Part shown: positions 26,493-42,470 of the stretch, in pieces
How positions within the stretch are numbered: position 1 is the stretch's first letter
Layout: each line of letters opens with the position of its first letter
Source: Pelagibius marinus
GTDB taxonomy: Bacteria > Pseudomonadota > Alphaproteobacteria > Kiloniellales > Kiloniellaceae
Reading direction: 5' to 3'
DNA length: 64,000 nucleotides
Assembly: GCF_014925385.1 (NCBI RefSeq)
Contig: NZ_JACSDK010000018.1
Coordinates: forward strand, 124,001-188,000
The notes under the pieces: generated by a model
Database searches by the model: none
The model's input: the letters and a program-made list of their open reading frames with translations, nothing else
What the model was told of the DNA's origin: nothing
Position numbers and translations under genes: made by a program

Positions 26493-26653
26493 CACCGCCG
26501 CTTTCCGTTTCTCTACGCCATGCAGCGTCGGCTGCAGTTGCCGGCGTGCGCCGTCATGCGGGCTCACTGTCGGCCCGTCTGGTCGCGGATCGTTCATTGC
26601 GGGTCGCGCGGAGATGTTGCGGGGCGGGGAGAATCGCGGATAATGTCGCTTCA

Positions 26654-26842
26654 GATGGTTCCGCCAGTCCGAACGGCACGGCGGATTAAATGGGAACACG
26701 GTGAGGCGTACCCTATAGGGACCGAAGCCGTGGCTGCCCCCGCAACTGTGAGCGGAGAGCGACACCCGACAAGCCACTGGCCCCAGCGCGGGCCGGGAAG
26801 GCGGAGTGGAGCGAAGACCCGCAAGCCAGGAGACCTGCCATC
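26654..26842 (+). ncRNA. Cobalamin (AdoCbl-type) riboswitch
   Basis: All consensus blocks are present in order: AATGGGAACACGGTGAGGC, a GCTGCCCCCGCAACTGT core near 26733-26748, AAGCCACTGG, GGGAAGGCGGAG, and the B12 box GCAAGCCAGGAGACCTGCC (26821-26839). The closing P1 stem is GATGG (26654-26658) with CCATC (26838-26842). It lies 123 bases before cbtB. Cobalamin riboswitches normally shut off downstream genes when B12 is plentiful, which suits cobalt uptake genes. Confidence 0.95.
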
Positions 26843-26965
26843 GGGTTTTTCTCACTCCGGGCGGGGTTGCTCGGAAGGGCGGAGTGGCAGGCGGGTCAGC
26901 CGTGCCGTGCAGATGTCTTTCCAGCGCATCCCTGTCCGAAGAACGATAGGCAGTTGGAGGACTTG

Positions 26966-27945: not shown

Positions 27946-28332
27946 GTGGCAGCGGTCTGCCTGCAGGTCTGTGTATCCTGTGAAGGCCTATGCTCTGAGT
28001 CCGCGGCCGGTGGGGAAGTCCCCGCCGGCCGCCGCCTTTACGAGTCCCTCCTGACCGCCACCGCCGAGATTCCCGACATCAACGTCGCGCCGGTCGACTG
28101 CTTCGCCGTTTGCGACCGTCCGGTCACTCTGGCTTTCCGCGCTGCAGGTGGCGATCCCGAAAGGTGGAGCTACCTCATCGGTGATGCCGACCCGGAGCGC
28201 GACCTCGCCGATATCCTGGCCGCCGCCCGCGCCGTCGCGGATTCGCCCCACGGCGTGCCGGCCATAGAGGATCGCCCGCCCTTCTTCCGCAAAGGCGTTA
28301 TCGCCCGTGTGCCGCCGTTGCCGAGGCTGTGA
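27946..28332 (+). CDS. DUF1636 family metal-binding protein
   Basis: 128 residues, start GTG at 27946. The N-terminal CVSCEGLC and the later CFAVCDRP give the four-cysteine pattern of DUF1636 proteins, thought to hold a thioredoxin-fold metal or Fe-S site. Such genes are frequent next to cobalamin synthesis or cobalt uptake genes; here it is 18 bases after cbtA under the same riboswitch. Its last 114 bases have a near copy at 30791-30916, see that entry. Confidence 0.85.
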   Translation: MAAVCLQVCVSCEGLCSESAAGGEVPAGRRLYESLLTATAEIPDINVAPVDCFAVCDRPVTLAFRAAGGDPERWSYLIGDADPERDLADILAAARAVADSPHGVPAIEDRPPFFRKGVIARVPPLPRL

Positions 28333-28358
28333 CGGTGCGCAGGGAGTGAGCGGCCAGC

Positions 28359-28901
28359 TTACTCTTCCAGGAAGGCCTTGTCGGCTTCCGGCCCCAGTCC
28401 CAGCTTGCCCTGTTCCCCGATCAGCGCCTTGACGCGCGGGTCGTGGCGGAACCACTGTTTGGTTTCCTTGGCATCCGCGGTGTAGCCGTTGTTCTCGGCC
28501 CAGGCCTTGAGAAAGCGGTTGGCGCCGCGCCACTCTCCGTCAGGCGCTTCGCGGACAAACTGCAGCGCGAAGAGCCTGACACCATGGTTGGTCATGAAGA
28601 GTCCGTCGGCGACGACTTTCTTGCCGAGGAAGGGCAGCAGTTCGACCTGCGTGCCGCTGAAGGGTGTCGAGTTCTTGACCGGAAGGACCAGCGTTCCGTC
28701 GTCGAGTAGCAGACCAAGTTGCCGGCGTCCGGCGCCGCCGTCGGTCGGGCAATCGTCTTTCAGCTCGCAGAGCACGTCGACCACTTTGGCCTCGAAGCGC
28801 GCGGTTTCCTCATTGGGCAGACCCCAGCTGTTGGCGGCCTGCGCGGTGCCGGCAAGGAACATGCCGGCGGTCAATACAAAGGCAAAGGTCCTGGGATGCA
28901 T
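28359..28901 (-). CDS. Secreted hypothetical protein
   Basis: 180 residues with a signal peptide (about 1-22, MHPRTFAFVLTAGMFLAGTAQA). The mature part has a beta-rich segment (FEAKVVDVLCELKDDCP, then GRRQLGLLLDDGTLVLPV and KKVVADGLFMTNHGVRLFAL) and a helical C-terminal end. Its layout, a V-D-x-x-C motif, a second cysteine, then G-L-L-x-D-G, mirrors the neighbouring 28906-29358 protein, so the two may be distant relatives. ATG 28901 has GGGGAG upstream. It is 4 bases downstream of that neighbour, one operon. Confidence 0.65.
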   Translation of the reverse strand: MHPRTFAFVLTAGMFLAGTAQAANSWGLPNEETARFEAKVVDVLCELKDDCPTDGGAGRRQLGLLLDDGTLVLPVKNSTPFSGTQVELLPFLGKKVVADGLFMTNHGVRLFALQFVREAPDGEWRGANRFLKAWAENNGYTADAKETKQWFRHDPRVKALIGEQGKLGLGPEADKAFLEE

Positions 28902-28905
28902 GGCT

Positions 28906-29358
28906 CTACTCCCCGAACGGCTGGATGCCGTATTCTTCATGGGTCAGGTTCACGATGCCTTCATCCTTGAGCACTTTGTTGACCGAGAGGTACTTCAGAC
29001 CGTCGCGCTCATAGACATCGCCGTCGATGCTGATCTGGTGAGTCTGGATTTCAAGCAGGCCGGGATCGGCGAGGGTGTCGCTGCGTCCTTCGAACTCGAC
29101 GATGAAGTAGACATCGCCGTCTTCGGTCAGCAGTCCGACGGGGACGCCGCCGGCTGCGCACCAGATAGCGCACTGATGGTGCGCCGTGCCCTCGGCGTAC
29201 ATGATTCCCGAGAGGTAACACCAGGTATCGATGACCTCGCCGGTCAGTTCCATGGACTCGGCTTTCATCGGCATGGCCGTGGACGCCGCGCCCAGCGCGA
29301 GGCCCGGCGCGGAGAGAGAAAGCGTCAGGGCCAGCAATGGTGCAGAAATACGAAGCAT
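28906..29358 (-). CDS. Secreted Cys/His protein
   Basis: 150 residues with a signal peptide (about 1-24). The mature part reads ELTGEVIDTWCYLSG, then HHQCAIWCAAGGVPVGLLTE and DGDVYFIVEF: three cysteines and two histidines that could bind a metal or form a disulphide. I do not know a named function; similar periplasmic proteins occur beside copper genes. It is preceded by the cupredoxin gene and followed by the related 28359-28901 gene. Confidence 0.65.
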   Translation of the reverse strand: MLRISAPLLALTLSLSAPGLALGAASTAMPMKAESMELTGEVIDTWCYLSGIMYAEGTAHHQCAIWCAAGGVPVGLLTEDGDVYFIVEFEGRSDTLADPGLLEIQTHQISIDGDVYERDGLKYLSVNKVLKDEGIVNLTHEEYGIQPFGE

Positions 29359-29509
29359 GATGGTCTCCTTCGCCGTAGGAGTGGGTGAGAACTCAGGCAG
29401 AGGTTCCTGAGTATGTCAAAGCGGCGAAGGGAAGGTGGTCACATGCCTTCACAAGGATGTTAGGAGAGCCGGAGTGGCGCGCCGGCGGGTGCCGGCGCGC
29501 CCGCGCTCG

Positions 29510-30079
29510 TCAGCTGCCGGCGTTGGGGGGGTTAGTGAACACGACCTCGCCATGCATGTCCGCCTCGTAGTGGCCGGGCACGTTGCAGGCGAACTCCAGG
29601 TCCATTGGCCCGGAAAACTTCCACACCAGTTCCCCCGTCTCGCCCGGTTCCAGCAAGACGCTGTTGGGGTCGTCATGTCCCATGCCGGCCCCGTGTCCGC
29701 TGCCCATTTCACTGTAGTTGATGCCGGTGGCGGTCATAGCGCCCCTGTCCATCATCGCCATCATCTCCTCTTGATGGGCGGCGTGCATCGCCGCGGTGCC
29801 GATGTTGAACTCATGCAGCAGTTCGCCTGCGTTCGTGACGACGAAGCGGACCGTCTCGCCCGGGTGCACCGAAATGCGCTTCGGCTCGAAATGACTGTCG
29901 TTCATGTCGATCTCGACGGTACGGTCGGCCTCTGTGGGCTTGGCCGGCTGTCCGAAGCTCATGGCGGCGTCGTGGCCATGGCCGCCCGAATGCGAGCCGG
30001 CGGCGAGGGCGCTGCCCGAAGTGGACAGGGCTGCAGCGGCGAGGAGGGCGAGGACGGCTTTGGAAAGTACAATTCGCAT
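29510..30079 (-). CDS. Periplasmic cupredoxin (type 1 copper protein)
   Basis: 189 residues with a signal peptide (about 1-27) and a His-rich start (GSHSGGHGHDAAM). The cupredoxin fold carries the type 1 copper ligands: His in GELLHEFNIG, then Cys, His and Met in FACNVPGHYEADM. An inserted Met/His-rich loop (MHAAHQEEMMAMMDRGAM) may hold extra copper. It probably binds or carries copper in the periplasm, as CopI-like proteins do. It is 151 bases upstream of the two secreted proteins on the same strand. Confidence 0.9.
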   Translation of the reverse strand: MRIVLSKAVLALLAAAALSTSGSALAAGSHSGGHGHDAAMSFGQPAKPTEADRTVEIDMNDSHFEPKRISVHPGETVRFVVTNAGELLHEFNIGTAAMHAAHQEEMMAMMDRGAMTATGINYSEMGSGHGAGMGHDDPNSVLLEPGETGELVWKFSGPMDLEFACNVPGHYEADMHGEVVFTNPPNAGS

Positions 30080-30276
30080 TGATCATAAGGTCCTTTTTGT
30101 TCACTACGGTCGCATGGTAAGTGCTGCTGATGCCAAGGAAGCGGCTGCAGCCTGCGCCACGGCGGCGCACCGTGCGGGATTTTTGCAACGATGTCATGGG
30201 AATGGGACGCCCAGGCGTCAGTCGACCGGCCGGTCAGCTCGGTGGCGTTGCGCGCTCTGGGGTGTGCGTCACTGAC

Positions 30277-30633
30277 TCAGCCCGGCTGCCGTGGCGGGGG
30301 AGGATCGAAGCTGTGGAAAACCTGCTGCGACAGCTCGGCGCTGCCCACCGAAACCACGTCAAAGAAATAGGGGTCCAGAGAGAGGCTCACTGTGTCGAAC
30401 AGCGGGTGAAAATGGTGGCTGCAGTTCCGTTGATCGGCGGACGAAGGGGTTTCGCCGCTGGAAGGAAGACCATGATCGGCACAATCGGTGTTCGATTGCC
30501 CGCCGGACAGGGGATCTATGACTGCATGGGCATGGGCGGGCGGCAGGTTGAGCGCTACGGCCAGTGCCGCCACAACAGCCAGCATCCGGGCCAGGTCCAT
30601 CGCCGAAGCAATCATGCGCGCGCCTAAGTTCAT
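30277..30633 (-). CDS. Secreted small Cys/His protein, DUF2946-like
   Basis: 118 residues. An N-terminal hydrophobic segment (LAVVAALAVALNLPPAHAHA) is a signal peptide. The mature part has CADHG and CSHHFHP, then a C-terminal FDPPPPRQPG end that is common in small copper-associated proteins of proteobacteria (recalled, not searched). Start candidates are GTG 30636, ATG 30633 and ATG 30615; none has a strong ribosome site. It precedes the cupredoxin gene on the same strand. Confidence 0.55.
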   Translation of the reverse strand: MNLGARMIASAMDLARMLAVVAALAVALNLPPAHAHAVIDPLSGGQSNTDCADHGLPSSGETPSSADQRNCSHHFHPLFDTVSLSLDPYFFDVVSVGSAELSQQVFHSFDPPPPRQPG

Positions 30634-30790
30634 CACCAGCGAATCGGTTCCACTTGCTTGTTGCGGGGAGGGATGAGGGTTTCCCGCGATGGAAGGTCAA
30701 GTCATTGGCCACCAAGTTTGGTGCTCGGGAGCCGTGTGACAAGGTCGCTGCGGTAATGCTCGATTTTTGTCACTTCTGCCGCAGTGTCAT

Positions 30791-30916
30791 GCCGCCGCCC
30801 GCGCCGTCGCGGATTCGCCCCACGGCGTGCCGGCCATGGAGGACCGCCCGGCCTTCTTCCGCGAGGGCGTCATCGCCCGCGTGCCGCCGCAACCCAGCAG
30901 GATCGAAACACCATAG
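30791..30916 (+). pseudogene. 3' remnant of a second DUF1636 gene
   Basis: 41 codons plus a TAG stop, with no start: AAARAVADSPHGVPAMEDRP followed by AFFREGVIARVPPQPSRIET and a final Pro. The first 47 bases (30791-30837) are identical to 28219-28265 of the intact gene; after that the copies differ mainly at third positions and in the last codons (PPLPRL versus PPQPSRIETP). The similarity begins abruptly. Different natural ends show two alleles or orthologues, not a recent tandem copy. The rest of 30634-31032 holds nothing else I can support. Confidence 0.85.
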
Positions 30917-31032
30917 GGGAGCGGCGGTCGCCGGTTCCCGGTCTGCAGTCATGCTGAGGCCCGAAGCGCTCCTCCGCTGCGATCGAACTCCAAAGCAGGT
31001 TGGTTGCGTAATTGCGGTAAGCGGGCCTTCGC

Positions 31033-31770
31033 TCAATTGCTCGGGCAGCCGAGCAGCGTCGCCAGAACGTCTCTTGGGTGCAGAGGGATGGCCGCGCAGG
31101 CAGGTGTTGCCGCGAACTCCTGTGCGTCGGCGCCCAAAGCGGGGTGCGGCGCGGCGAGCGATGCGGCGGACTCGGCCCCGTTGCAGATTTGGCCGATGTC
31201 AATGCCGGCCAGCTTGAGGGTTGCCGGGGCCGCCATGATGATCGCTTCCTCTCCGAGGTTTTGGAAATTCTTGCCGGCCTGCTCGATACGGCGCGCCTCG
31301 TGGATCGTGGCGCCGTAGAGGCGCGGAGGTTCGCACTCGTCTCGGGGACGCTCCACGGCCACCTCGCCCGAATTGAGGCCGATGCGCACCCGCCGGGTGG
31401 GCAGGCCTGCCGAACGGCGGTGGGCGTTCTCCTCGGCGATCTGGCCGCTCAGCTCGGCTGCGGCCAGAAGCGCGAGCCGGGCCGATGACGCGTAGTGCGG
31501 AAAGGCCGTGTCCCAGAAGGCAAAGACGCCGTCGCCGGTGCTGCAGAGCACCGTCCCGCGGTTGCCTTCGATGACGTCCCGGATCAGTGCCAGGTTCTGG
31601 TTCAGGTACATCGCAATGCCGACGATGCCAAGCGCGCGGGCGAGCCCGGTCGAGTCTTCCATATCCGTGAACATGACCGTGGTCATGGTGCGTGTCAGGT
31701 GGACGGGCGAGACTGCCGGGGCGGTGCCGGGGCATCGTGGCAGACTGACCTCATGGTTCAGTGACCTCAT
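31033..31770 (-). CDS. Class III adenylate/guanylate cyclase domain protein
   Basis: 245 residues from ATG 31770, 8 bases after an AGGAGG site. The cyclase domain fills most of the protein: TVMFTDMEDSTGLA and CSTGDGVFAFWD supply the two metal-binding Asp residues. RIGLNSGEVAVERP and LYGATIHEARRIEQAG are the rest of the site, but the usual V-N-x-A-A-R is I-H-E-A-R-R, so the transition-state Asn is His while the Arg remains. Activity may therefore be altered. There is no membrane segment or separate sensor. It may make a cyclic nucleotide in the cytoplasm. Confidence 0.82.
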   Translation of the reverse strand: MRSLNHEVSLPRCPGTAPAVSPVHLTRTMTTVMFTDMEDSTGLARALGIVGIAMYLNQNLALIRDVIEGNRGTVLCSTGDGVFAFWDTAFPHYASSARLALLAAAELSGQIAEENAHRRSAGLPTRRVRIGLNSGEVAVERPRDECEPPRLYGATIHEARRIEQAGKNFQNLGEEAIIMAAPATLKLAGIDIGQICNGAESAASLAAPHPALGADAQEFAATPACAAIPLHPRDVLATLLGCPSN

Positions 31771-31942
31771 CACGCGACCTCCTCTGGTGCCGGCCTTTGC
31801 GGCTTTCGATGCCCTTGAGTGTGCCCGCACAACGCAAGCGCATCGTCAGAGGTCCGTTGAATGATCGTCATAACTTCGCGATAAACCGCGGAATTCCCCG
31901 CAAAAAAGGACTAGTCTCGGCATCCGGAAGGGGTGCCGTGCG

Positions 31943-33568
31943 TCAGGCCAGCAGCTGGCTGAGGTCGATGACGCCCTTTCCGAACTGCTGCTCGGCGTTT
32001 ACCGCGCTCTCGCCGTTCGGTTTGTCGACACTCAGAGGCACCGGATTGGCGGGTGTTCCACCCAGCCACGGCCAGTTCACGTTCAGGCTGCCGCTCGCCT
32101 TGACCGCGACCTTGACCCCGTTTCCGTCGGCGGGAGCGCCTGTGTCCGCGCGCTCCTTCGACTGCAGCAGGGCGACGGCGCCGGCCATGATGGCAGAGGC
32201 CCCGGAAGTCCCCCCGAAGAGCGTGTAGAGCGCGGAGCGGTCGTCGTTCTCCTGTTCCTCGGTCGAGAGGCTTTCGAGGACCCCGTCCGTGTAGCCCCGG
32301 GGGCCGGGCACGTCGGTGGTCAGCAGCCCCTGCGGCGAATAGTCGACTTCCAGTCCCGGATTTGCCGCCAGGTGAAGCATGAAATTGTGGTCGCGCCAGC
32401 CCGGCGCCTCGCGGTCGAGGCGGACTTCGTGACGGTTGTACATCTCTTCGTCGTCCGAAGGCGTGGCAATGGTGACTTTGCAGTCCGCGGCTTCGGCGCA
32501 GTAGTTCGAATAGGATGAACGCTTGGCCAGGTATGTCACCCCTGCAACGGAGATGATGCCGTTGTTGTCGTCGGCTTTATTCGCCGGGTAGATCAGGTGG
32601 TCGTAGCCGTTGTTGCCCGCGGCGCAGACGACGGGAATCTCGTTGCTCACTTCCTCCAGGATCTTTTCGAAGACGTCCCAGGCGAGTTGCCGGTCCGGAT
32701 CGGAGTCGTAGCGGCTCTCCTCGAGGTCGCTGCGATACCGGTTGGCACGCTTCGGGTCGGCGGCTTCGCGCGGAAAGTGGATGACCGACACGCCCTGGTC
32801 GCGGGCATAGAGGAAGGCGAAGATGAGCTGCTGCGCCGTCGGCTCGGCAGAGACGACAATGGGCAGAATTTCCGCGCCGGGAGCGACCCCCCAGTAGGGT
32901 ACCGGTCCGATGTCCGGCAATTCGGAATCTGCGCCGTTCCCCCCGTTACCCCCGTTTCCGCCGGCCTCCGCGGCGGGGTGACCCACCATGAGACCTGCAC
33001 AGGCCGTGCCGTGGCCGCCATAGCGCTGGCGGGACAGCTGGGCATCGTGGTGCCGAACGCCGAGACCGCCCGACAGCCGGTCGATCAACGCGTCGCCGTT
33101 GGCGTCGAGAAAACCTTTCGCCCAGTTCCAGGTGGCGGCGCTGACTAGACTGGCGTCAAGTGGGTCCTCCAAGCCGCGGTTCATCGGTTGCGCGACGTTC
33201 GCCTGTGCGAGCAGTGCCGGCGAGGCATCGGTGATCGCCGGTCCTGCGGCGTAGACGGCGCCGAAGGGGTGAACCGCGAAGTCGACGCTGGGCTTGATGC
33301 TCGGCGCGAGATTGGGATGCTTGTCGTTGACGCCGGTGTCGATCATGGCGATGACCTCGCCCGTTCCGGGCAGGATACCGTCGGGAAGATTGAGAAGTGT
33401 CCAGGCGTCCGGCTCGATCTCGTACCTTGCTTCCTCGTCGAATTCGGGCGCGTTGTTGGGGTCGGCGCCACCGGGCTTCGCGCGCACGGCACGGATCGCA
33501 ATCAGGTGCCAGAGGTAGTGGTACCAGTCGTAGAACTCGAAGCCTTGTTCTTGCAGATTCGCGGCCAT
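31943..33568 (-). CDS. Subtilisin-like serine protease (S8 family)
   Basis: 541 residues without a signal peptide. The catalytic triad is Asp77 (VIAMIDTGVND), His186 (YGGHGTACAGLM) and Ser455 (GGTSGASAIMAGAV), and the oxyanion Asn lies in VVCAAGNNGYDHL. A Gly/Asn-rich insert (about 205-215) follows the His. The enzyme looks complete, and absence of a signal suggests cytoplasmic action or non-classical export. GGAGGG precedes ATG 33568. It is 12 bases after the PAP2 gene and probably shares its transcript. Confidence 0.9.
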   Translation of the reverse strand: MAANLQEQGFEFYDWYHYLWHLIAIRAVRAKPGGADPNNAPEFDEEARYEIEPDAWTLLNLPDGILPGTGEVIAMIDTGVNDKHPNLAPSIKPSVDFAVHPFGAVYAAGPAITDASPALLAQANVAQPMNRGLEDPLDASLVSAATWNWAKGFLDANGDALIDRLSGGLGVRHHDAQLSRQRYGGHGTACAGLMVGHPAAEAGGNGGNGGNGADSELPDIGPVPYWGVAPGAEILPIVVSAEPTAQQLIFAFLYARDQGVSVIHFPREAADPKRANRYRSDLEESRYDSDPDRQLAWDVFEKILEEVSNEIPVVCAAGNNGYDHLIYPANKADDNNGIISVAGVTYLAKRSSYSNYCAEAADCKVTIATPSDDEEMYNRHEVRLDREAPGWRDHNFMLHLAANPGLEVDYSPQGLLTTDVPGPRGYTDGVLESLSTEEQENDDRSALYTLFGGTSGASAIMAGAVALLQSKERADTGAPADGNGVKVAVKASGSLNVNWPWLGGTPANPVPLSVDKPNGESAVNAEQQFGKGVIDLSQLLA

Positions 33569-33580
33569 GACACCCTCCGC

Positions 33581-34630
33581 CTATTGCCATTCGCGCTGGG
33601 CCGCGCGCATCGCGCCGTCCATCGCTTCGATCAGATAGGGCGCGACCCGGGCGGCGAGCTCGTGGCCCGCCTCGGTGTCGCTCGAGTAGTGCAGGCCGCC
33701 CCATTCGCGGTTTTCTCCCACCCGTCGTGCCCGGTGGAAGAGCGCCGAGATGCCGGGATGCTCCGGAAGGATGCGCTGGAAGACCTGCGCTACCGAGAAG
33801 GACTGGAAGGAGTGGTTCGAGGGGTAGGAGGCATGCGAGGGGACAGGCAATATGGGCCGCAGCCGCGGCTCGATGATGTTCGGCCGCCGGCGGTTGAAGC
33901 GGTCCTTGTAGATCAGGCCGACGATTTCGGTGACCTCCAGTACCGCGATGATCAGCCCCCGCGTCGCCTCGAAGCCACCGGCCGAGTCGATGCCGAGCGG
34001 TGCCGTATAGTCGGAGATCTCAAAAGTTGCCTGTCGCTCGATCTCGGCCCGCCTGATCGGGTCGTTGGCCAAGGCCGCCTGCAGGTCGAGGAGGCCGGCT
34101 GTCTCCAGCAGGCTCTCGCTCGGCCCCGGCGGGGGCGGTATCGCGATGTTCTCCCAGATCGCGCCGAGCAGCCGCCCCAGATCGTTGAGACCAAAGCGGC
34201 ACAGCCCCCGGTGCTCGTACCAGGAAGGCAGAGCTTCAGCGTCGAGCTCGAAGACTTCGCGGCCCCGGCCGCGGCCGCGTCCTCTACCGCGGCCCCTGCC
34301 GCGCCCCCGGCCGCGTCCCCGCCCTCTGCCGCGGCCACGGCCTTGGGCGGAACCGAGAGACAGCGCCAACACGCGTGTCTGAAGTTCCTCCTCAGGGGCG
34401 TCCCCCGTCGCGATCAGAAGAAGGTTGGGGGATATCGCCAGCTCGCTGCGCGTGGTCTTGCGGACGATGAATTCCGAGGATGGCAGGTACTCGCCCGCGA
34501 TGAGGAACTCGAGAAGGCCCGCACTGAAGTCGGGATTTGCCTCCAAACCCGCGACCAACTGGTACTCGCGCAACTCGTCGTGGCGAATGCGATAGCGGGC
34601 ATCTCTCAGACTTTGAGCAAGCGTAGGCAT
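33581..34630 (-). CDS. PAP2/vanadium haloperoxidase-like phosphatase with an Arg-Gly repeat
   Basis: 349 residues from ATG 34630 behind GAGGGGG. The C-terminal half has the acid-phosphatase/haloperoxidase triad: KDRFNRRRP (K-x6-R-P), YPSNHSF (PSxH) and RVGENREWGGLHYSSD (R-x5-H-x3-D). Residues 97-124 are 14 consecutive Gly-Arg pairs (34259-34342), encoded with varied synonymous codons. The build resembles bacterial vanadium-peroxidase-like proteins that act in the cytoplasm; neither metal nor substrate can be told. It lies between the SARP-like regulator and the subtilase. Confidence 0.82.
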   Translation of the reverse strand: MPTLAQSLRDARYRIRHDELREYQLVAGLEANPDFSAGLLEFLIAGEYLPSSEFIVRKTTRSELAISPNLLLIATGDAPEEELQTRVLALSLGSAQGRGRGRGRGRGRGRGRGRGRGRGRGRGREVFELDAEALPSWYEHRGLCRFGLNDLGRLLGAIWENIAIPPPPGPSESLLETAGLLDLQAALANDPIRRAEIERQATFEISDYTAPLGIDSAGGFEATRGLIIAVLEVTEIVGLIYKDRFNRRRPNIIEPRLRPILPVPSHASYPSNHSFQSFSVAQVFQRILPEHPGISALFHRARRVGENREWGGLHYSSDTEAGHELAARVAPYLIEAMDGAMRAAQREWQ

Positions 34631-34716
34631 GGACCACCCCCTCTTTCGCCCAGCGGCTCCCGGCAAGCCGGTCCACTCCCTCCGCTAGGGCAATGGACCG
34701 CAGCCGCCGCCCGAGT

Positions 34717-36411
34717 TTAGTTCGGGTGCGCCACCAGGCCGACGCGTGATAGACCCCTTTCGATAACAGCGGTGCCGAGCACTCCGGCGATCGGGTAGTC
34801 CCGGTCGTGAAGCAGCTCCAAGGAGAAATCCGGCTCCAGTTCGCGGATTCTCTGCAGTGTGTCGTAAGCTTCCTGGCCCTCGCCCATGTATCCCTGGCAG
34901 GAGGCGGTATAGCGCAGCGCGGGCAGGTAGTTCGGCTGCTGCGCGAGGACGCGCCTGCCGTGCGCGATGCCCTCGTCGAAGCGGCCTCTCAGCGTTGAGA
35001 GGATGCAGCAGGTGGTGTCGATGCAATAGCGGTAGGGCGGTGGCCCCCCCAGCTTTCGCGCGATCACCGCGTCTTTATAGCCCCGCTCCACGTCACCCAG
35101 ATAACCGAGCGTCAGTGCCCGCAGGTCGCGCGCGATTGCCAGGTTCGGGTTTGCGGCTACGGCGCGGTCGGCGAGGTCCAGGGCGTAGTGGTAGTCGCGA
35201 AGGATGAACGAGTAGGCATGGGCGGTCAGCGCCAGGGTGATGGGATTGTAGGGGTCGCTTTCCTCTGCGCGGCGCGCATAGTCGCGGACCTGTTCACAGA
35301 AGGCGCCACTGTGGCCGACCCGGCGCTCACCCAGGCGTGTCGCGTTGATGAAGAGAAGCCAGCCGAGATAGGAACTCTTCGGATCCAGCTCATAGGCGCG
35401 CAGCAGCATTTTCTCGGCGGAGTCGATGTCGGCATCCGTAAGGCGGAAGATCTGATAGATCGCCCCGATCGCCAGCCGCGATGCTTCATGGCGTGTCTCA
35501 TTGTGCGGCCGGGCCGGCCGGACGATCTGGTCCAGCGTGGCGAAGACCGAATCGTTCACGAAGGCGCCAAGATCGACTTGCTCCGGCGAAGCCAGTTCGC
35601 CGTCGCCGAACCTGCGGGTCTGGGACCACAGCACATGCCCGTCCTCGACCCTGTGCAATTGAACGGACAGGTTGGCGCCGCCGGCCAGCTTTGCCGGCTT
35701 CATGTGCAGGATCCAGTCCGGGCCGCTTGACGCCCCAAGCTGGGTGGCGGGCGCGCGGTCAATCCGCAGATCGATGAGGTCGACGGCGTCGACATTCAGG
35801 AAACTGCGTGCCGCCATGTCGAGAAACAGGTTCCCGACGGAGCAGACCTCGGGATCGAGCTCTGCCGGGGAATCGCCGTGCAATCCGATACAGGGCCGCG
35901 ACAAGGAAGGAGACGGGCTGTCCGCGGCAGGCTCCCGGACCAAGAGGGGCACTGACCTGTCGGCGCTCACGCCGCTGTCGGCCGCGTCCCGGCGGAACTG
36001 TCGTTCTCCACGCAGCCAATCCTCGAATTCCGGATCGCCGAGGTCGAGACCTTCGAGCAGCTCCTGGGTCGGGCCGTCGGGGGAGCTGTCGGCGAGGTCG
36101 ATCAACACGGCAGAGTGGTCAAGCCGGACAATCTCGCGGTCGGCGGAAATCGGTTCTATGCCGAGCGATCTGAAGTGCCGGCGCAGCCCGCTCAATTCCT
36201 GCCGCAGGCTGGCGGCGCCCTGTTCCTCGTCGCGCTCGCTCCAGAGTTTGTCCTGGATCCACTTGCGGCTGCGCACGCCGGTTTTTGCCAGGGCGAGGAG
36301 GGCGATCAGCGCCTTGGCTCTCTTGCCGCGGGGCGTGATATCCGTGCCGTCGCCGTTCTCGACGCGGAGGGGACCGCTCAGTTGGATCTTGATTCTTGGA
36401 ACCGCGTTCAC
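34717..36411 (-). CDS. SARP-type transcriptional regulator with TPR region
   Basis: 564 residues. The N terminus (about 1-100) is an OmpR-like winged helix as in SARP/BTAD regulators (IQLSGPLRVENGDGTDITP, RAKALIALLALAKTGVRSRK, WIQDKLWSERDEEQGAASLR). A middle region resembles the FlgO/adenylate-cyclase-associated beta domain (about 215-300, DWILHMKPAKLAGGANLSVQ), and the C-terminal half is tetratricopeptide-like helices. There is no membrane helix. It probably controls the PAP2 and subtilase genes downstream on its strand, possibly sensing through the TPR part. An inverted repeat 87 bases upstream may be its operator. Confidence 0.8.
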   Translation of the reverse strand: MNAVPRIKIQLSGPLRVENGDGTDITPRGKRAKALIALLALAKTGVRSRKWIQDKLWSERDEEQGAASLRQELSGLRRHFRSLGIEPISADREIVRLDHSAVLIDLADSSPDGPTQELLEGLDLGDPEFEDWLRGERQFRRDAADSGVSADRSVPLLVREPAADSPSPSLSRPCIGLHGDSPAELDPEVCSVGNLFLDMAARSFLNVDAVDLIDLRIDRAPATQLGASSGPDWILHMKPAKLAGGANLSVQLHRVEDGHVLWSQTRRFGDGELASPEQVDLGAFVNDSVFATLDQIVRPARPHNETRHEASRLAIGAIYQIFRLTDADIDSAEKMLLRAYELDPKSSYLGWLLFINATRLGERRVGHSGAFCEQVRDYARRAEESDPYNPITLALTAHAYSFILRDYHYALDLADRAVAANPNLAIARDLRALTLGYLGDVERGYKDAVIARKLGGPPPYRYCIDTTCCILSTLRGRFDEGIAHGRRVLAQQPNYLPALRYTASCQGYMGEGQEAYDTLQRIRELEPDFSLELLHDRDYPIAGVLGTAVIERGLSRVGLVAHPN

Positions 36412-36724
36412 AGCAAAAAAGCCTTTCAGGGTCCAAGAGTTCTGGGGGTATTCCTCACAAGAGATTAGAGCAAATGGTGCACTTCCCTAGAGAAGCAATT
36501 GTATTACTACTCAGGTATTACAATAAAAGGTGAATAATATTTCCAAATATTAACTATGGGTAGTAGAGTCGCGGTCTTTATAAGTTGAATACCCGGCCTC
36601 GTAATTAGCCGCTTACCCCGTCTCAAAGGGGTCGGGGATTTCGTCCTGCCGCCGCACCGGCAGGCTCTTCGACGTTTGTAGAGGAAGAATAAATGCTTGG
36701 GCGCGCTCGTGCCGCGCGGCCCCC
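36412..36724. promoter_or_regulatory. AT-rich regulatory gap with an inverted repeat (36498-36524)
   Basis: ATTGTATTAC and GTATTACAAT (36498-36507 and 36515-36524) form an inverted repeat with one mismatch and a 7-base spacer, in an AT-rich patch from about 36490 to 36560. It stands 87 bases before the SARP-like start, so it may be that gene's promoter or operator. From 36570 to 36724 nothing else is recognised. Confidence 0.4.
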
Positions 36725-36931
36725 TCAGCGGCGCTTCCATCCCAGGAAAGCGATACCGGCGCCGACCACGAAGGGCAGCCAGAAGATCAGCAGGGCTTCC
36801 TCCGTCAGCCACTCGTAGGAACGGCTGGCGTTGTTGGTGTAGAAGCCGGCGGCCATTTCGTTCAGGAAGATCCAGAACAGCAGGGCGCCGGCGCAAATGA
36901 CCCCACCCAGCAGCATCAAGAAAATACGCAT
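36725..36931 (-). CDS. Small two-helix membrane protein, copy A
   Basis: 68 residues: an N-terminal helix (about 3-24, RIFLMLLGGVICAGALLFWI), a short polar loop (FYTNNASRSYEWLTEEA), and a second helix (about 48-64). It is a paralogue of the next gene upstream (37013-37219): same length, same FLML-G-x6-GALLFWI and EAL-x-IFW-x-PF-x2-GA-x-I-x-F-x-GW pattern. Function unknown. Start ATG 36931. Confidence 0.72.
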   Translation of the reverse strand: MRIFLMLLGGVICAGALLFWIFLNEMAAGFYTNNASRSYEWLTEEALLIFWLPFVVGAGIAFLGWKRR

Positions 36932-37012
36932 CTATCGAACATCCGTTATGACTGTTGGTCGCAACCCAGAAATAGCGCAGCCAAAGCGACGGCGCCGCGC
37001 TTCATTGCCTGC

Positions 37013-37219
37013 TCACGGAAGAGACCAGCCTATGAAGATGATGGCGGCGCCCGCCGCGAAGGGCACCCAGAAGATTCGCAGAGCCTCTTTGTTCAGCCAT
37101 TTCATGGACTGCTTGGCGTTTGAGGTGTGCCAGGCTTTCGCCATGGCCTGCAGGTAAATCCAGAACAGCAGGGCCCCGACGGAAACAGCGGCTCCCGACA
37201 GCATCAGGAAAAGACGCAT
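37013..37219 (-). CDS. Small two-helix membrane protein, copy B
   Basis: 68 residues from ATG 37219, paralogue of the 36725-36931 product. First helix MRLFLMLSGAAVSVGALLFW, loop AWHTSNAKQSMKWLNKEA, second helix IFWVPFAAGAAIIFIGW. The loop of this copy is more basic (KQSMKWLNK) where copy A is acidic (SYEWLTEEA), which would suit a paired complex. An upstream extension of the frame runs through the Lrp remnant and is not believed. It lies 81 bases upstream of copy A. Confidence 0.72.
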   Translation of the reverse strand: MRLFLMLSGAAVSVGALLFWIYLQAMAKAWHTSNAKQSMKWLNKEALRIFWVPFAAGAAIIFIGWSLP

Positions 37220-37253
37220 CACTTTGTATTCCGGTTCTGTTGTCGGCGGAAGC

Positions 37254-37348
37254 TCATGAGACGGCCGCTTGTGCCGGGCCGCCCGTCGTCTCCAGCGGCA
37301 GCGAGTGGGGTGTACGTCACCTGGCGCAGGGCGAGGGAGGAGTCGATG
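37254..37348 (-). pseudogene. 3' remnant of a second Lrp/AsnC gene
   Basis: Read on the minus strand this matches the last 25-30 codons of the intact Lrp gene at 41854-42327: IDSSLALRQVTYT, then after a one-base indel HSLPLETTGG, then PAQAAVS and a stop at 37254. Over about 70 bases there are six mismatches and one indel against 41861-41930. The intact gene stops right after ETTGG, this copy runs seven codons further, so the ends come from different alleles. No start or DNA-binding domain remains. Confidence 0.8.
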
Positions 37349-37507
37349 ACGATCTTCGCTTCGGCAATTCTCCTTTAGATAGTATTTAAGAAATTCCATT
37401 CTACCATCTCAACCCTAAAGCGAGTTCGAGGTTGATATCCTTTCGTAACCTGTAGCACGATGTTGCTGCACTTGGCGCCTGCGATTCCTCTTCGCTGGAG
37501 AGTCTCG

Positions 37508-38740
37508 ATGGCTGAGCCTGCCCAACCGATCGCAAGAAGGTCCGGACGCTGGATCTATTTTATCGGGATCCTCGGTTTCCTCGCCTATGCGGGTTGGATC
37601 ATGGCTCCTTATCTGCGCTCCATCATCGTCCGGGATGCCACGGTGACGACGTGGTTGAACTGGTCCACCGCTCCTATCGAAGGCACGATCACCTGGCAGT
37701 CCTCCGGTGTCGAACAAAAGGTCGGTGCCGACGGTGTCATCGCCCGCATCGAGAACGTGTACATGAGTCGCCATGCGCTGGAGGAACATGGTCTCCGCAT
37801 TAAACTGGTGCAGGCCAAGGTGGATCAGCTCAAGGCCTATCTCGAAGATATCAAACAGTTGGATCGGGAGCGTGCCGATCTGAAAGGAGACTACGCCGAT
37901 ACATTTCGTGCTCAGTTGGATGCCGAAATTGCGAGCTTGAAGCGCAAGATCAAGGTGAATAACGACCGGCTCGTTCTGATGCGTGACATCGCGGCGCGCA
38001 AGGTGAAATTGTTGAACAAAGGATTGGTCTCGGAAATCGTCACGCACGAGGATGCGATCAGGGTCTCGGACCTGGAGTTCTATCTCGCAGAGCTGCAAGA
38101 ACGCCTGGACCAGGCCCAGGTCCGCCGTCAAGCCGCCGACAAAGGCGTGTTCATTGACCAGAATGGAGAAGATCCGGCCTGGGTTCGAGGCTCGCGTCTG
38201 GAACTCAAGCTGGAAAAGAAGCGGGCCCGCCTCGAGTTGAGAGAAGCGGAGGTGGAGCTGACTGAAGTGCAGTTGGATGCCGAGGAAAAGCAGAGAGACT
38301 TCGACAGGATGAGCGGGGCCAGCATCAGCGTGCCGCCGGGCAGTATTCTATGGAGTCAGCCTGTGGCGGGGGGCGCTGCGGTGGTGAACGGCCAATCCGT
38401 GGCCGCGTGGCTCGACTGTTCGGTCCTGATGATAGACGTGCCACTCGCTGATCCCGAGGTCTCGCTGATAAAGATGGGCATGGAGGCGGATGTCATCCTG
38501 GAAGGCGAAAGCAAGACTCGCAGGGCAAAGACGATTCTAACCCGGGGTTCAGCTTCGACCCTTGGAAGCACGGACCTTGCGGCGGTCGCCAAAGGCCGCC
38601 GCGATGGCGTGGCGCAGGTTCTGCTCGATTTCTCTCATGAGGCTGAGAGCTTCGAGGAGTGTCCGGTCGGTCTTGCCGCTTATGTGGACTTTGTCGACAT
38701 TGGCCTCATCGACGTAATCAGAGCACGCCTGCGGCTCTAG
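37508..38740 (+). CDS. HlyD-like membrane fusion protein
   Basis: 410 residues from ATG 37508, behind CTGGAGAG. One N-terminal membrane helix (about 16-38, WIYFIGILGFLAYAGWIMAP), a lipoyl-type half (IEGTITWQSSGVEQKVGADG), a long coiled coil (about 85-275, rich in Lys/Glu/Gln/Leu), and a beta-barrel-like C-terminal domain (VPLADPEVSLIKMGMEADVI). This is the adaptor plan of HlyD-type exporters, but no exporter or outer channel is adjacent; instead two CDF-like membrane proteins follow at 17 and 26 bases. In some polysaccharide systems HlyD-like proteins act without an exporter. Confidence 0.75.
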   Translation: MAEPAQPIARRSGRWIYFIGILGFLAYAGWIMAPYLRSIIVRDATVTTWLNWSTAPIEGTITWQSSGVEQKVGADGVIARIENVYMSRHALEEHGLRIKLVQAKVDQLKAYLEDIKQLDRERADLKGDYADTFRAQLDAEIASLKRKIKVNNDRLVLMRDIAARKVKLLNKGLVSEIVTHEDAIRVSDLEFYLAELQERLDQAQVRRQAADKGVFIDQNGEDPAWVRGSRLELKLEKKRARLELREAEVELTEVQLDAEEKQRDFDRMSGASISVPPGSILWSQPVAGGAAVVNGQSVAAWLDCSVLMIDVPLADPEVSLIKMGMEADVILEGESKTRRAKTILTRGSASTLGSTDLAAVAKGRRDGVAQVLLDFSHEAESFEECPVGLAAYVDFVDIGLIDVIRARLRL

Positions 38741-38756
38741 GAGGGCCGACCGAGCC

Positions 38757-39680
38757 ATGGCCGGAGCACCGACCCCCGAGCAAATAGCTAAGGAGAGAGC
38801 GGTCCTCTATACGGCTCTGGCCGATCTCTCGATTCTCGTGCTCCAGATTATTTTCGCTACGCTGACAAGGTCGCTCTCTCTGCTGAGTGAGGCGATCCGC
38901 GTCGGACTCATGCTTACCATCGAGTTCTATACATATTTCGTCCTCAGGGCTGTGCATCGGGGGCGCCTGGGAAAGTTTCGTTTCGGAATCGGTCAGCTTG
39001 AGCAGATGTGCAATCTGGTGATCGGCGCGTGCCTGGTGCTCAGCGGTCTGTGGGTTGCTCAGGAGGTGGTCCGGGCGATCCTGCTCGGAGAAGCGGCCGC
39101 GAGTCCTCTTGGCCTGGCAACCGCTGCGGTTATCAACGGCATAAACCTGACCATTAACGTCCTGGGCTGGTTCGCCATGGTTTCGGCGGCACGGCCCGAC
39201 GACTCGGCGATCTTCAGCGCACAGTTGCGCGCGCGTACGGTAAAGTTACTTTCCTCGATCATTGTCCAAACAACAATGACCGCTGCCGCCTTGGCGAAGG
39301 ACCCGCTGGTTGCGGCCTGGCTCGACGGGCTTGGCGCGTCGTTTGTCGGAGTACTGATGGTCGCCATTGGGGCCCGGATGGTCTGGAGTTGCCTGCCGGA
39401 TCTGCTCGACCGTGCGGTTCAAGCGGAGCTTTCAGTCAGCATCGACTCGATTCTGGATGAGGCAAAAGCCGGTACCCTTGGAATCGCGCAGCGAAGAACC
39501 CGTCGTGCCGGAAGTTTTCCTCATATCGAACTCACTCTGTCGACGACGGGCTGCGTCTGGGTCAGTGATTTCCTGGAACGCGCCGGCGAACTCGAGACCC
39601 GATTGCGCAGCCAGATTCCCGACGCCGATATCACGATCGCAGTTCATGAAACCGGCAGCACGGGCCTCGAGTCGAACTAG
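38757..39680 (+). CDS. CDF-like membrane protein, first of a pair
   Basis: 307 residues, six predicted membrane helices then a cytoplasmic domain, the plan of cation diffusion facilitators. GKFRFGIGQLEQ matches the CDF segment YGxGKxE, and PDLLDRAVQ matches the usual end of the membrane part. The canonical helix-2 acidic ligand region reads SEAIRVGLM instead of SDAxHSxxD, and the helix-5 His (H-x3-D) is replaced by Ala before the Asp of AAWLDGLG. Metal transport in the normal way is therefore doubtful. It starts 17 bases after the HlyD-like gene. Confidence 0.72.
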   Translation: MAGAPTPEQIAKERAVLYTALADLSILVLQIIFATLTRSLSLLSEAIRVGLMLTIEFYTYFVLRAVHRGRLGKFRFGIGQLEQMCNLVIGACLVLSGLWVAQEVVRAILLGEAAASPLGLATAAVINGINLTINVLGWFAMVSAARPDDSAIFSAQLRARTVKLLSSIIVQTTMTAAALAKDPLVAAWLDGLGASFVGVLMVAIGARMVWSCLPDLLDRAVQAELSVSIDSILDEAKAGTLGIAQRRTRRAGSFPHIELTLSTTGCVWVSDFLERAGELETRLRSQIPDADITIAVHETGSTGLESN

Positions 39681-39705
39681 GTGGGAGTCTGATGGAGCAA
39701 GAACC

Positions 39706-40587
39706 ATGAATGCCGGGACGTTCCTGCGGATTGCCGATTTTGGGTTTGCGGCGCTGTTACTGGCGGTGGCGCTGATTTCGAACTCGTTGAGCCTTATCGG
39801 CCTATCCCTTGCCGGCTTGGCGCTGGCCACCCGCGAGACCTTGCTGGTTTCCCTTTCACGCAGACTGCAGGGGGACTCCTCGCGTCACTTTCAGTATGGC
39901 CCTGGCAAGGCGGTCCAGGCCGGCAACTTGGGCATCGCCTTGTGCACGATCCTTGCCGGCGTCTGGCTCGCGGGTGAATCTTTCGGTGTCATCGTATCTG
40001 GTTTCAATGAGATAACTCCCTTTGGTTTCGCCCTTGTGGCGACCTCAAATGCGCTTGTTGCGCTCTGGCACGGCATTCTGGTCTACGCACATGTCGCGCC
40101 CGACGATCAGGCGAAGCGGATCCTGCTCAGCCGGCGCCGCCGTCTTTTCGTTTTGCTTGTCGCTGTCCAGATCTTTCTGACCACCGCCGTCTTGGCGAAG
40201 GATCTGGAGGTTGCGTTCTGGGTCGATGTTCTCGGCGCGGCCGTCGTTTCGTCGATCGTTGTCGCTTCCGCCTTAAGGCAGGCCTGGAATTGCGTGTGCG
40301 ATCTGATTGACCATCCCCTGGACGGCGAGCGGGAGGCGGCTCTCATGGCATTGCTATATCGGGAGGGCATTCAGCCGGCGGAACTCGCCGAACTGCGCAC
40401 GCGCTGTTGCGGACATCAGGTCTTCGCCGAGGTAACTTTGCGCTTGCTGGAACCAATGCCGATCGAAGAAGCCCATCAACGGCTTGCAGGTCTTCGGCGG
40501 GCGTTGGAGGGCGCGGTGATGGACCTTGACCTTGTAATCAAACTGCAGGGACCTGCGCCATCCACGCAGACTTCCGGTGGGAGCTGA
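39706..40587 (+). CDS. CDF-like membrane protein, second of a pair
   Basis: 293 residues from ATG 39706 after GATGGAGC. The frame is open upstream into the first CDF-like gene, but the start fits the first membrane helix (FLRIADFGFAALLLAVALIS). QYGPGKAVQAGN matches the CDF YGxGKxE region, and CDLIDHPLDGER the end of the membrane part. As in its partner, helix 2 lacks the acidic ligand (SLIGLSLAGLALA) and helix 5 has Ala in place of His (VAFWVDVLG). The two proteins may form a heterodimer with the HlyD-like protein. Confidence 0.72.
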   Translation: MNAGTFLRIADFGFAALLLAVALISNSLSLIGLSLAGLALATRETLLVSLSRRLQGDSSRHFQYGPGKAVQAGNLGIALCTILAGVWLAGESFGVIVSGFNEITPFGFALVATSNALVALWHGILVYAHVAPDDQAKRILLSRRRRLFVLLVAVQIFLTTAVLAKDLEVAFWVDVLGAAVVSSIVVASALRQAWNCVCDLIDHPLDGEREAALMALLYREGIQPAELAELRTRCCGHQVFAEVTLRLLEPMPIEEAHQRLAGLRRALEGAVMDLDLVIKLQGPAPSTQTSGGS

Positions 40588-40630
40588 CAGGCGAACATGA
40601 AGCGCAGGACCTAGGGGCGGGGCCTTCTGG

Positions 40631-41734
40631 TCAAGGCCGTTTGCGCAGAACGACGGTCAGGTTCCAGAGCTCGAACCTGTACTTACCCGGGTGCTCGCGG
40701 TAGAGGGCCTCGAAGCGACGGTAGAACTCCTCCGCCAGGCTGTCCGCCTCTTCGACGTCATTGGCTGCCGGACCGAAGAGCTGCGTGCGAAGCGTGGTGT
40801 CGGCGAAGGCGCGCATGTAGCCGGTGTACTTTCGGGCGTAGGCGGCCGGGTCGCCGATCAGGGCCCCGAAGACGTCATCTGCATTGGCCGGCGCGGGCTT
40901 TACCGATACCTCTTTGATCTCAAACGCTTTCGAGAGGACAGGATCCGACTCGATCGGGTCCCTTGCGTCCTTCTCGGTCTGGAACCAGAGCGCAAAAACG
41001 AAGCGATCGAGACTGGCCTTGTCGAGCAGCCCTTCATCGGCCATCGACTGCGCCGCGGCCTGGATTGCGCGGTAGATGCCGCGTCCCGACGCGGCCGCGC
41101 CGTTGGCCTCGTCGGCATCCGGGACCGATCCGAGTGTGGACACGAGCAGATGGCCGCCCGGCCGCAGTTCCTGTGCCCTGAGCTGAAGGAAGCGAACCCA
41201 GTCACTGCGTGCCAGTGTCGCCATCTTCCGGCGCGCCTCGCCCTGCAGATCGGCGAACCAGATGCTGCCGGGAGCGTCGAGATGGACCGCATGGGAGAGC
41301 CAGTGGCTTGCGGCGAAACAGGTCGCCAGATTGACCGATTCATCCGACACCATCCGGTCATAGAATGACCCCACTGCAGCTTCCGCTCGGATGCAGGTCC
41401 GGCCTTCGAGGTAGCCCTCCGGGCCGCAAAGGAGTGTGAACAAGGTGTTCCAGTCGTTTCCGGGCTGGTCCAGGTGGCACACGGCGACAGGTCCGTCGCC
41501 CTCCACTTCGCGATAGGCCTCGATCGCCGAGCGGGCGACGTTGATCGTGCTGAGGCCCGGTCCGCACCCATAGTCGGCTATTCTGAACTCCGGCCGGACC
41601 GGACCGATATTCTGGACAAGCTTGCGGATTGTGGCGGCGTGGTTGGCCACCATGGACTGCTGCGCCGAGGAATGCGCATTGTAGTCAACCATGCCCTCGG
41701 TGGAGCGGTTTGAAAGCGTCTGATCGTCCTGCAT
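40631..41734 (-). CDS. SABATH-like carboxyl methyltransferase
   Basis: 367 residues from ATG 41734 (GTG 41755 is an alternative). It shows the SABATH order known from plant salicylate/jasmonate methyltransferases: YNAHSSAQQSMVANHAATIR near the N terminus, the SAM loop IADYGCGPGLSTI, the DQPGNDWNTLF segment, then GSFYDRMVSDESVN and FAASHWLS, where plants have GSFYxRLFPxxSL and SSYSLMWLS. The family uses S-adenosylmethionine to methylate small carboxylic acids or N atoms. The substrate is unknown. It faces away from the CDF pair and lies next to the Lrp gene. Confidence 0.82.
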   Translation of the reverse strand: MQDDQTLSNRSTEGMVDYNAHSSAQQSMVANHAATIRKLVQNIGPVRPEFRIADYGCGPGLSTINVARSAIEAYREVEGDGPVAVCHLDQPGNDWNTLFTLLCGPEGYLEGRTCIRAEAAVGSFYDRMVSDESVNLATCFAASHWLSHAVHLDAPGSIWFADLQGEARRKMATLARSDWVRFLQLRAQELRPGGHLLVSTLGSVPDADEANGAAASGRGIYRAIQAAAQSMADEGLLDKASLDRFVFALWFQTEKDARDPIESDPVLSKAFEIKEVSVKPAPANADDVFGALIGDPAAYARKYTGYMRAFADTTLRTQLFGPAANDVEEADSLAEEFYRRFEALYREHPGKYRFELWNLTVVLRKRP

Positions 41735-41853
41735 GAGGGCATCCCCATCGACCACTTTCGGGTTTCTATCGTGATCCTATCGGCAAATACTGCCCCTTAC
41801 TTGACGGTGCGCCCAGCACAAAGGAAAGCAGCCTTCTGTGGCCCGGCGGCTGA

Positions 41854-42327
41854 TCAGCCGCCGGTCGTCTCCAGCGGCAGGGAGTTGGTGTACTTCACCT
41901 GGCGCAGGGCGAAGGAGGACTCGATGGAGGCGACGTTCTCCACCCGGGTCAGCTTGGTCTTGAGGAAGCGCTCGTAGGCGGCCAGGTCGGCGGTGGCCAC
42001 GCGCAGCAGGTAGTCGCGGGTGCCGGTCATGAGATAGCACTCCAGAACCTCTGGGTAGCTGCTCACCTCGGCTTGGAAACGGTCCAGGTCCTCCTCGTGC
42101 TGGCGCTCCAGCTTGATGGAGATGAAGACCGAGACCGGCAGGCCAACGGCATCCTGATTCAAGAGCGCGACATAGCGGTTGATGACCCCGGCCTCCTCCA
42201 GGAGGCGCACCCGGCGCAGGCAAGGGGAAGGGGAGAGCCCGACCCGCTCGGCCAGTTCCACGTTGGAGAGCCGGCCATTGGCCTGCAGGGCGTCGAGGAT
42301 CTTGCGGTCGATGGCGTCCAGTTTCAT
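41854..42327 (-). CDS. Lrp/AsnC-family transcriptional regulator
   Basis: 157 residues from ATG 42327 (MKLDAIDRKILDALQANGRL). The N-terminal helix-turn-helix reads SNVELAERVGLSPSPCLRRV; the C-terminal RAM domain has ECYLMTGTRDYLLRV, the ligand/dimer region. Lrp-type proteins respond to amino acids. It is divergent from the AceE-like gene with a cluster of TGGCAT palindromes between, so it probably controls that gene and itself. A broken second 3' end of this gene lies at 37254-37348. Confidence 0.93.
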   Translation of the reverse strand: MKLDAIDRKILDALQANGRLSNVELAERVGLSPSPCLRRVRLLEEAGVINRYVALLNQDAVGLPVSVFISIKLERQHEEDLDRFQAEVSSYPEVLECYLMTGTRDYLLRVATADLAAYERFLKTKLTRVENVASIESSFALRQVKYTNSLPLETTGG

Positions 42328-42330
42328 GGC

Positions 42331-42431
42331 TGGCATATTATGCCATTCCATGCCGCGATGGATAGGTGATAATGCCAGTTTATTCACGAAAAATGGCGTA
42401 TTTGGCATGAAATGCCAGAGAAATTGGCGTA
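42331..42431. promoter_or_regulatory. Lrp-type operator cluster between lrp and the AceE-like gene
   Basis: Perfect palindromes TGGCATA-T-TATGCCA (42331-42345) and TGGCAT-GAA-ATGCCA (42403-42417), plus partial sites AATGCCAG (42372-42379), TGGCGTAT (42394-42401) and TGGCGTATT (42425-42433). The first touches the lrp start codon, the last lies about 40 bases before the AceE-like start. Repeated half-sites across a divergent promoter are usual for Lrp/AsnC proteins. Confidence 0.75.
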
Positions 42432-42470
42432 TTCTCATCCTGAGCCGCCCTTCAAACCGGGAAATCCGCC

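Follow-up and report, generated by a model that had tools for sequence, protein, structure and literature searches.

The 64,000-nucleotide stretch analysed here (the window; positions 124,001 to 188,000 of contig NZ_JACSDK010000018.1, assembly GCF_014925385.1, Pelagibius marinus) carries an accessory region between two convergent genes, DUF1636 (rightward) and Lrp/AsnC (leftward, from 42438), whose 3' ends are separated by 13.5 kb. Each of these genes has a second, diverged copy of its 3' end inside the region. The two genes are adjacent in two related genomes, native sequence lies behind the spare Lrp end, and the same footprint, i.e. an intact gene followed by an insert and a spare 3' end, is found at other genes. 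On balance, it seems probable that recombination took place at the 3' end of the resident gene, with foreign DNA that brought a homologous end.

The intact DUF1636 gene (Pfam PF07845) occupies 27946-28332 on the + strand, behind cbtB and cbtA, and the intact Lrp/AsnC gene occupies 41854-42438 on the - strand. The end of DUF1636 (28219-28317) is repeated without gaps at 30791-30889 (+ strand), over 99 nt and with 92.9% identity (self-search E 1.8e-35); the repeat stops 15 nt short of the stop codon of the intact gene. The end of Lrp (41857-41926) is repeated at 37278-37348 (- strand), where it is frameshifted, over 71 aligned positions with 90.1% identity and one 1-nt indel (self-search E 3.5e-19). 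The stop codon of intact Lrp lies at the centre of a perfect 22-nt palindrome (41843-41864). Each spare end lies downstream of its parent gene and in the same orientation, and all the predicted accessory genes are located between the 3' ends of DUF1636 and Lrp. Both features had been pointed out in a first-pass annotation of the window: its divergent spare ends are real repeats, and its placement of all accessory genes between the convergent 3' ends holds for the predicted genes.

We compared the whole locus of this genome (G000) with those of seven congeners, including G003, G004 and G005. In G004 and G005, DUF1636 and Lrp are adjacent and convergent, and the accessory DNA is absent; a single small membrane-protein gene separates them in G004. 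The flanks of the region are colinear with G004 on both sides (up to 28323 on the left and from 41857 on the right), with 84-88% identity over kilobases. The remaining five congeners have no close DUF1636 and carry different genes beside Lrp. Within the region, two stretches correspond to the native intergenic sequence of G004: 36731-36931 (- strand, 86% nucleotide identity), the counterpart of the small membrane-protein gene, and 37040-37348 (76%), which covers a second copy of this small gene, the Lrp flank and the Lrp scar. The two small membrane-protein genes, at 36731-36931 and 37013-37219 (both on the - strand), form a diverged tandem over 36731-37219 with 57% protein identity, G004 having only one. 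Behind the spare Lrp end, a G004-like native tail of seven codons and a stop (37254-37277) and 13 nt of native flank (37241-37253) are retained, and the segment 37241-37348 is 88% identical to G004. The C-terminus of intact Lrp falls seven codons short of its G004 counterpart. Because the scar keeps this G004-like tail and flank, the tail being lost from the intact gene, the inner Lrp end is, judging from its sequence, the old native end. The DUF1636 scar may be regarded as an old end by analogy only, because it is followed by an insert and not by native flank.

The region is thus a composite of at least three inserts: insert A (28333-30790), a middle insert (30890 to approximately 36700) and insert B (37349-41853). 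The insertion between two convergent genes proposed in the first-pass annotation agrees with the empty site of G004 and G005. Its count of two separate insertions is too low, as 30.9-36.7 kb is a further insert, and its single middle block at 30.9-37.3 kb has to be divided, 36.7-37.3 kb being native. Its idea that old ends were left behind as scars stands for Lrp, with its native tail and flank, and for other genes described below; for DUF1636 it would stand by analogy.

We also looked for the same order of parts elsewhere, by self-comparison of 839 kb of G000 and 400 kb of G004 (names of genes at other footprints were assigned by Pfam). Five more genes of G000 show an intact gene, an insert and a spare 3' end: LysR (repeat of 107 nt), PGK (70 nt), FliW (438 nt), SRAP (76 nt) and a DUF3253 gene (147 nt, with a deletion). 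A solute-binding protein gene of G004 displays the footprint as well (94 nt), the repeats of the self-comparison ranging from 70 to 438 nt. G003 has footprints at Lrp, with a cargo and a repeat length that differ from those of G000, and at PGK, with a different cargo. Among outgroup loci, the gene of the translation factor LepA is concerned twice (L081:17596-20053, repeat of 121 nt; L093:17348-20473, 166 nt) and a PmbA/TldD protein gene once (L113, 71 nt, 76%, a weak case). For LysR, FliW and the DUF3253 gene, G004 has no insert and the spare end occupies the position of the native end. The LysR spare end and its downstream gene are colinear with G004, the intact gene lying 1.7 kb away. The PGK and SRAP cases were counted on repeat order, an empty site being shown for the three other genes; the tail of the PGK scar matches G004. 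In a tblastn search with the Lrp C-terminus over loci longer than 4 kb, a spare end was found, besides the window scar (L053), only in G003 (L052 = L076). This recurrence at several genes suggests a repeatable mode of gene gain and not a single event. Since the footprint is also present at genes that are not paired in this way, such as LysR, the mirror symmetry that had first drawn attention to the locus is incidental and needs no special mechanism.

Gene-end repeats were then counted over 2.83 Mb, i.e. the self-comparison set, 74 outgroup loci (1193 kb) and 400 kb of the family member G017, in which 2244 genes were called with a home-made GC-codon rule. Each outgroup locus is a piece of no more than about 20 kb around an Lrp relative, and the outgroup rate is therefore a lower bound. 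A repeat was retained if it was at least 60 nt long with at least 75% identity, lay no more than 25 nt from one gene end but not the other, and had its partner within 12 kb. Internal repeats (27 direct and 3 inverted rows) were left out. The strict count also excludes paralogue rows (3 in G000, 8 in G004 from a single array and 1 in G017) and direct pairs covering at least half of the gene, namely FliW (0.85) and the DUF3253 gene (0.50), which are still taken as cases elsewhere on synteny grounds. Ten truncated gene-end repeats remained, 9 of which are 3' ends with the spare copy downstream; the tenth is a 5' end with the spare copy upstream, and the other two direct classes are empty. Compared with an expectation of one-quarter, this proportion gives a binomial P of 3e-5 (4e-4 without the two pairs already reported for the window), and 9 vs. 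1 alone gives P = 0.02. One of these nine downstream 3' ends (L113) is weak, and 2 of the 7 cases in G000 are the reported pairs. G000 provides 5 of the 9 strict cases in 839 kb, vs. 4 in the 1993 kb of the other samples, with none in G017.

Duplications of full genes, later deleted down to their 3' ends, would also yield a spare end in the same orientation. They are nevertheless very improbable: the LysR scar forms one continuous stretch with the native downstream gene, a bias towards downstream 3' ends is unexpected under random deletion, and G004 and G005 possess single adjacent genes. Such a deletion of duplicated full genes, which the first-pass annotation had itself set against its proposal, is not seen in G004 or G005.

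Under recombination of foreign DNA at a resident gene end, a small incoming piece would carry the last ~70-440 nt of the resident gene, or of an allele of it, next to the cargo genes. Recombination at the gene end would leave the resident gene readable, and would move the old 3' end, together with the native flank attached to it, beyond the cargo, where this end would decay. The simplest route would be a single homologous crossover involving a molecule that is circular or has been circularised, giving the order intact gene, cargo, spare end and native flank; a linear molecule with a homology anchor at one end could be an alternative route. In the window, the event would have occurred at both convergent genes, with a further insert between the two sites. 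We infer the crossover, the circular form and the foreign origin of the new ends. The bias towards 3' ends may result from selection, as only there would the gene and its promoter stay intact.

The comparison of intact and spare ends bears on this proposal and on another one, an insertion with a long target duplication, in which both ends would be plain duplicates of native sequence. We consider the latter rather unlikely. Inserts with long direct repeats that are absent from relatives, which is what it calls for, are present at the window, LysR, FliW and DUF3253 loci. In the window, most of the differences between intact and spare Lrp are scar decay (nonsynonymous or frameshift) and intact Lrp is native-like; its last 129 nt are 96.9% identical to G004, vs. 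88.7% elsewhere in the gene (Fisher P = 0.005). Sliding windows give 95.7% and 97.1% identity to G004 at the Lrp end, and up to 95.7% in the next gene. The two FliW copies match each other at 97% and show the same distance to G004, as also fits a target duplication. On the other hand, the two Lrp ends of G003 differ at 6 of 43 codons, all of them by synonymous changes, with more unusual states in the intact copy. The two LysR ends resemble different alleles: several sites and the stop codon have the same state in the intact end and G005 on one side, and in the scar and G004 on the other. The identity to G004 reaches 98.1% for the LysR spare end, vs. 93.5% for the intact end and 93.7% for the 5' part of the gene. 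In a tree of the 107 nt, the intact end and G005 stand apart from the scar, G004 and the others, and the 5' part groups with G004 with a bootstrap of 100. Furthermore, the intact tails of Lrp and PGK are unlike the native tail kept in their scars. For LysR and the Lrp of G003, these data favour two functional alleles, i.e. an end that would have been brought in with the insert. For the Lrp of the window, only the last codons would point to a foreign intact end, and for DUF1636 the sites separating the two copies are mixed. The earlier suggestion that incoming DNA restored the gene 3' ends therefore agrees with the last codons of Lrp, but foreign ends are not proven for either DUF1636 or Lrp.

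Several observations weigh against the capture of foreign gene ends by recombination. At LysR, the scar is the odd one and the intact end is as close to G004 as the rest of the gene, and the split in the tree of its ends has 64% bootstrap support. The sites separating the FliW copies interleave without a single switch, and it is the intact tail of the DUF3253 gene, rather than its scar, that matches G004. Some cases would fit a plain duplication of native sequence equally well. In addition, no donor with the cargo next to the same gene was found. The 20-kb stretch with the nearest relative of the insert B methyltransferase (81% identity, G060, L187) contains no Lrp hit, and the relatives of the insert B HlyD and first cation-efflux proteins in P. 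litoralis (55% identity for each, L066) have none nearby. Finally, the two PGK repeats, one in G000 and one in G003, share their starting point within the gene, 74 and 72 nt from its end, respectively. These coincident starts count against single crossovers with random fragments, because such crossovers do not predict them, and leave some probability to a site-specific event.

This site-specific possibility corresponds to the remains of integrative elements, whose recombinase would target gene 3' ends and supply its own version of the end, the enzyme being lost or acting in trans. Prophage e14 integrates in this way at the 3' end of icd, bringing its own version of the end. The order of the parts would be the same, the targets are recurrent (two species each for Lrp and PGK, two outgroup loci for LepA), and the shared PGK start would be expected. 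This origin is nonetheless unlikely. The repeats of other genes start at different points (73 vs. about 150 nt from the gene end for Lrp, 125 vs. 168 nt for LepA), several unrelated genes are used, and the 13 inserts measured vary from 0.5 to 6 kb. Six of these inserts have a G+C content of 0.47-0.60, lower than that of their loci. As the first-pass annotation stated for integrases and transposases, no integrase, transposase or recombinase domain was detected between DUF1636 and Lrp among the 13 proteins scanned, shorter or overlapping open reading frames (ORFs) being outside the scan. The same was true for recombinase domains in 10 cargo proteins of other inserts, which represent part of the insert ORFs, and in 5 further cargo proteins from one G004 and one outgroup insert; a lost or trans-acting enzyme would escape such scans.

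We examined the cargo of the three inserts for relatives and possible carriers. Insert A contains four predicted genes, all on the - strand: two proteins without Pfam match (28359-28940 and 28906-29358), a cupredoxin (29510-30079) whose nearest models are those of CopI, below their cut-offs, and a 119-amino-acid ORF (30277-30636). None of the seven congeners has a match to the 28359 protein. In loci of other families, relatives of the 28359 and 28906 proteins adjoin in five of the six examined. Matches of insert A to plasmids fall in the cupredoxin region for the best 20 of 38 records. The middle insert encodes, all on the - strand, a cyclase-like protein (31033-31830), an S8 subtilase (31943-33568), a PAP2 phosphatase (33581-34666) and a SARP-like regulator (34717-36411; named from annotated plasmid relatives). 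It has DNA matches in 66 plasmid records, 62 of which are from Rhizobium, with about 71% identity over some 8% of the query among the 8 matches listed. The regulator, the S8 peptidase and the PAP2 protein are all annotated in four of these eight records, and this trio, also found together on Rhizobium plasmids, could be a conserved accessory gene set. The PAP2 protein contains 13 Arg-Gly units in an uninterrupted run. Insert B, with four predicted genes, encodes an HlyD-like protein (37460-38740, + strand), two cation-efflux proteins (38757-39680 and 39706-40587, both + strand) and an S-adenosylmethionine (SAM)-dependent carboxyl methyltransferase of the SABATH type (PF03492; 40631-41755, - strand). 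Among the seven congeners, the methyltransferase has no match and HlyD is matched in P. litoralis only; the plasmid collection contains no DNA match to insert B. In G060, the methyltransferase relative lies next to a truncated duplicate of its C-terminal part (48%).

A phage origin of insert A and of most of the middle block was considered but is not supported, 28333-36000 having no match in the phage collection. Gene transfer agents are likewise not supported as carriers: the GTA_TIM family was found in none of the eight Pelagibius genomes, with a positive Caulobacter control. ComEC is present in all eight but also in 10 of 14 controls, and says little.

Other observations concern the neighbourhood of these genes. 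The cbtB, cbtA and DUF1636 genes, all rightward, lie downstream of a cobalamin riboswitch (26639-26856; Rfam RF00174, 137 bits), which ties DUF1636 to cobalt/B12 handling. Where the window has cbtBA-DUF1636, G003 carries a zinc ATP-binding cassette (ABC) transporter operon (L052:12452-14982; ZnuA by Pfam). An NMT1-type ABC transporter lies downstream of Lrp in G001, G002, G006 and G007 (from Pfam for the G001 protein and from ORFs for the others), with a HupE/UreJ gene between them in G002. The cargo behind PGK in G003 (L298:6908-8113) is a DUF4062 protein, residues 7-176 of which match PDC-S60, a candidate defence model of PADLOC (E 5e-49).

Related arrangements have been described in other bacteria. 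For the C-terminal displacement of rhs genes, Jackson et al. (2009, PMC2935791) propose a single crossover with a circular intermediate. As in that account, the 5' part is kept, a new 3' end is gained and the old end is moved downstream past the insert; this order, including the native flank after the displaced end, is found here at Lrp, LysR, the DUF3253 gene and FliW. The rhs tips are described there as non-homologous ends of one gene family, whereas the present cases concern homologous ends of ordinary genes (Lrp, DUF1636, LysR, PGK, FliW), with unrelated cargo. In the Escherichia coli experiment reported in PMC3240628, with a small non-replicative plasmid introduced by conjugation, single-crossover events of this kind predominated: a polymerase chain reaction product diagnostic of duplication was obtained in 56 of 60 clones, and 14 sequenced clones carried homologous gene-end duplications of 109-950 bp. 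A related model has been proposed for the type VI secretion system (T6SS) effector arrays of Vibrio cholerae (PMC5361080). The footprint also resembles homology-facilitated illegitimate recombination (HFIR), in which, as outlined in PMC3240628 and PMC5361080, one homologous end anchors foreign DNA. HFIR was, however, predicted to delete recipient sequence in the E. coli experiment as presented in PMC3240628, while recipient sequence is kept and duplicated here. Long-target-duplication insertion, a footprint named in Helicobacter pylori (Nobusato et al. 2000, as described in PMC1643837 and PMC4978471), likewise shows long direct repeats flanking inserts missing from a relative. The H. pylori cases, in these two descriptions, mainly concern restriction-modification genes; here, the repeats are located at gene 3' ends, the cargo is diverse and some copy pairs look like two alleles. 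It is the recurrence of the footprint at several genes that is of interest.

Many accessory regions have no integrase, and their entry route is unknown. We tentatively suggest that capture anchored at gene 3' ends could be a regular, integrase-free means for Pelagibius to acquire small accessory genes, and probably also for other alphaproteobacteria, at a lower rate. If so, 3' ends would dominate since only there does the resident gene keep working, and conserved genes such as Lrp, PGK and LepA would recur since their ends still match across species. A truncated 3' end downstream of an intact gene, in the same orientation, would make such events countable, datable and polarisable in any genome, and this footprint would allow the relative shares of homology-anchored capture and site-specific integration to be tested. 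Under the same suggestion, spare gene ends would constitute a readable, genome-wide record of these gains.

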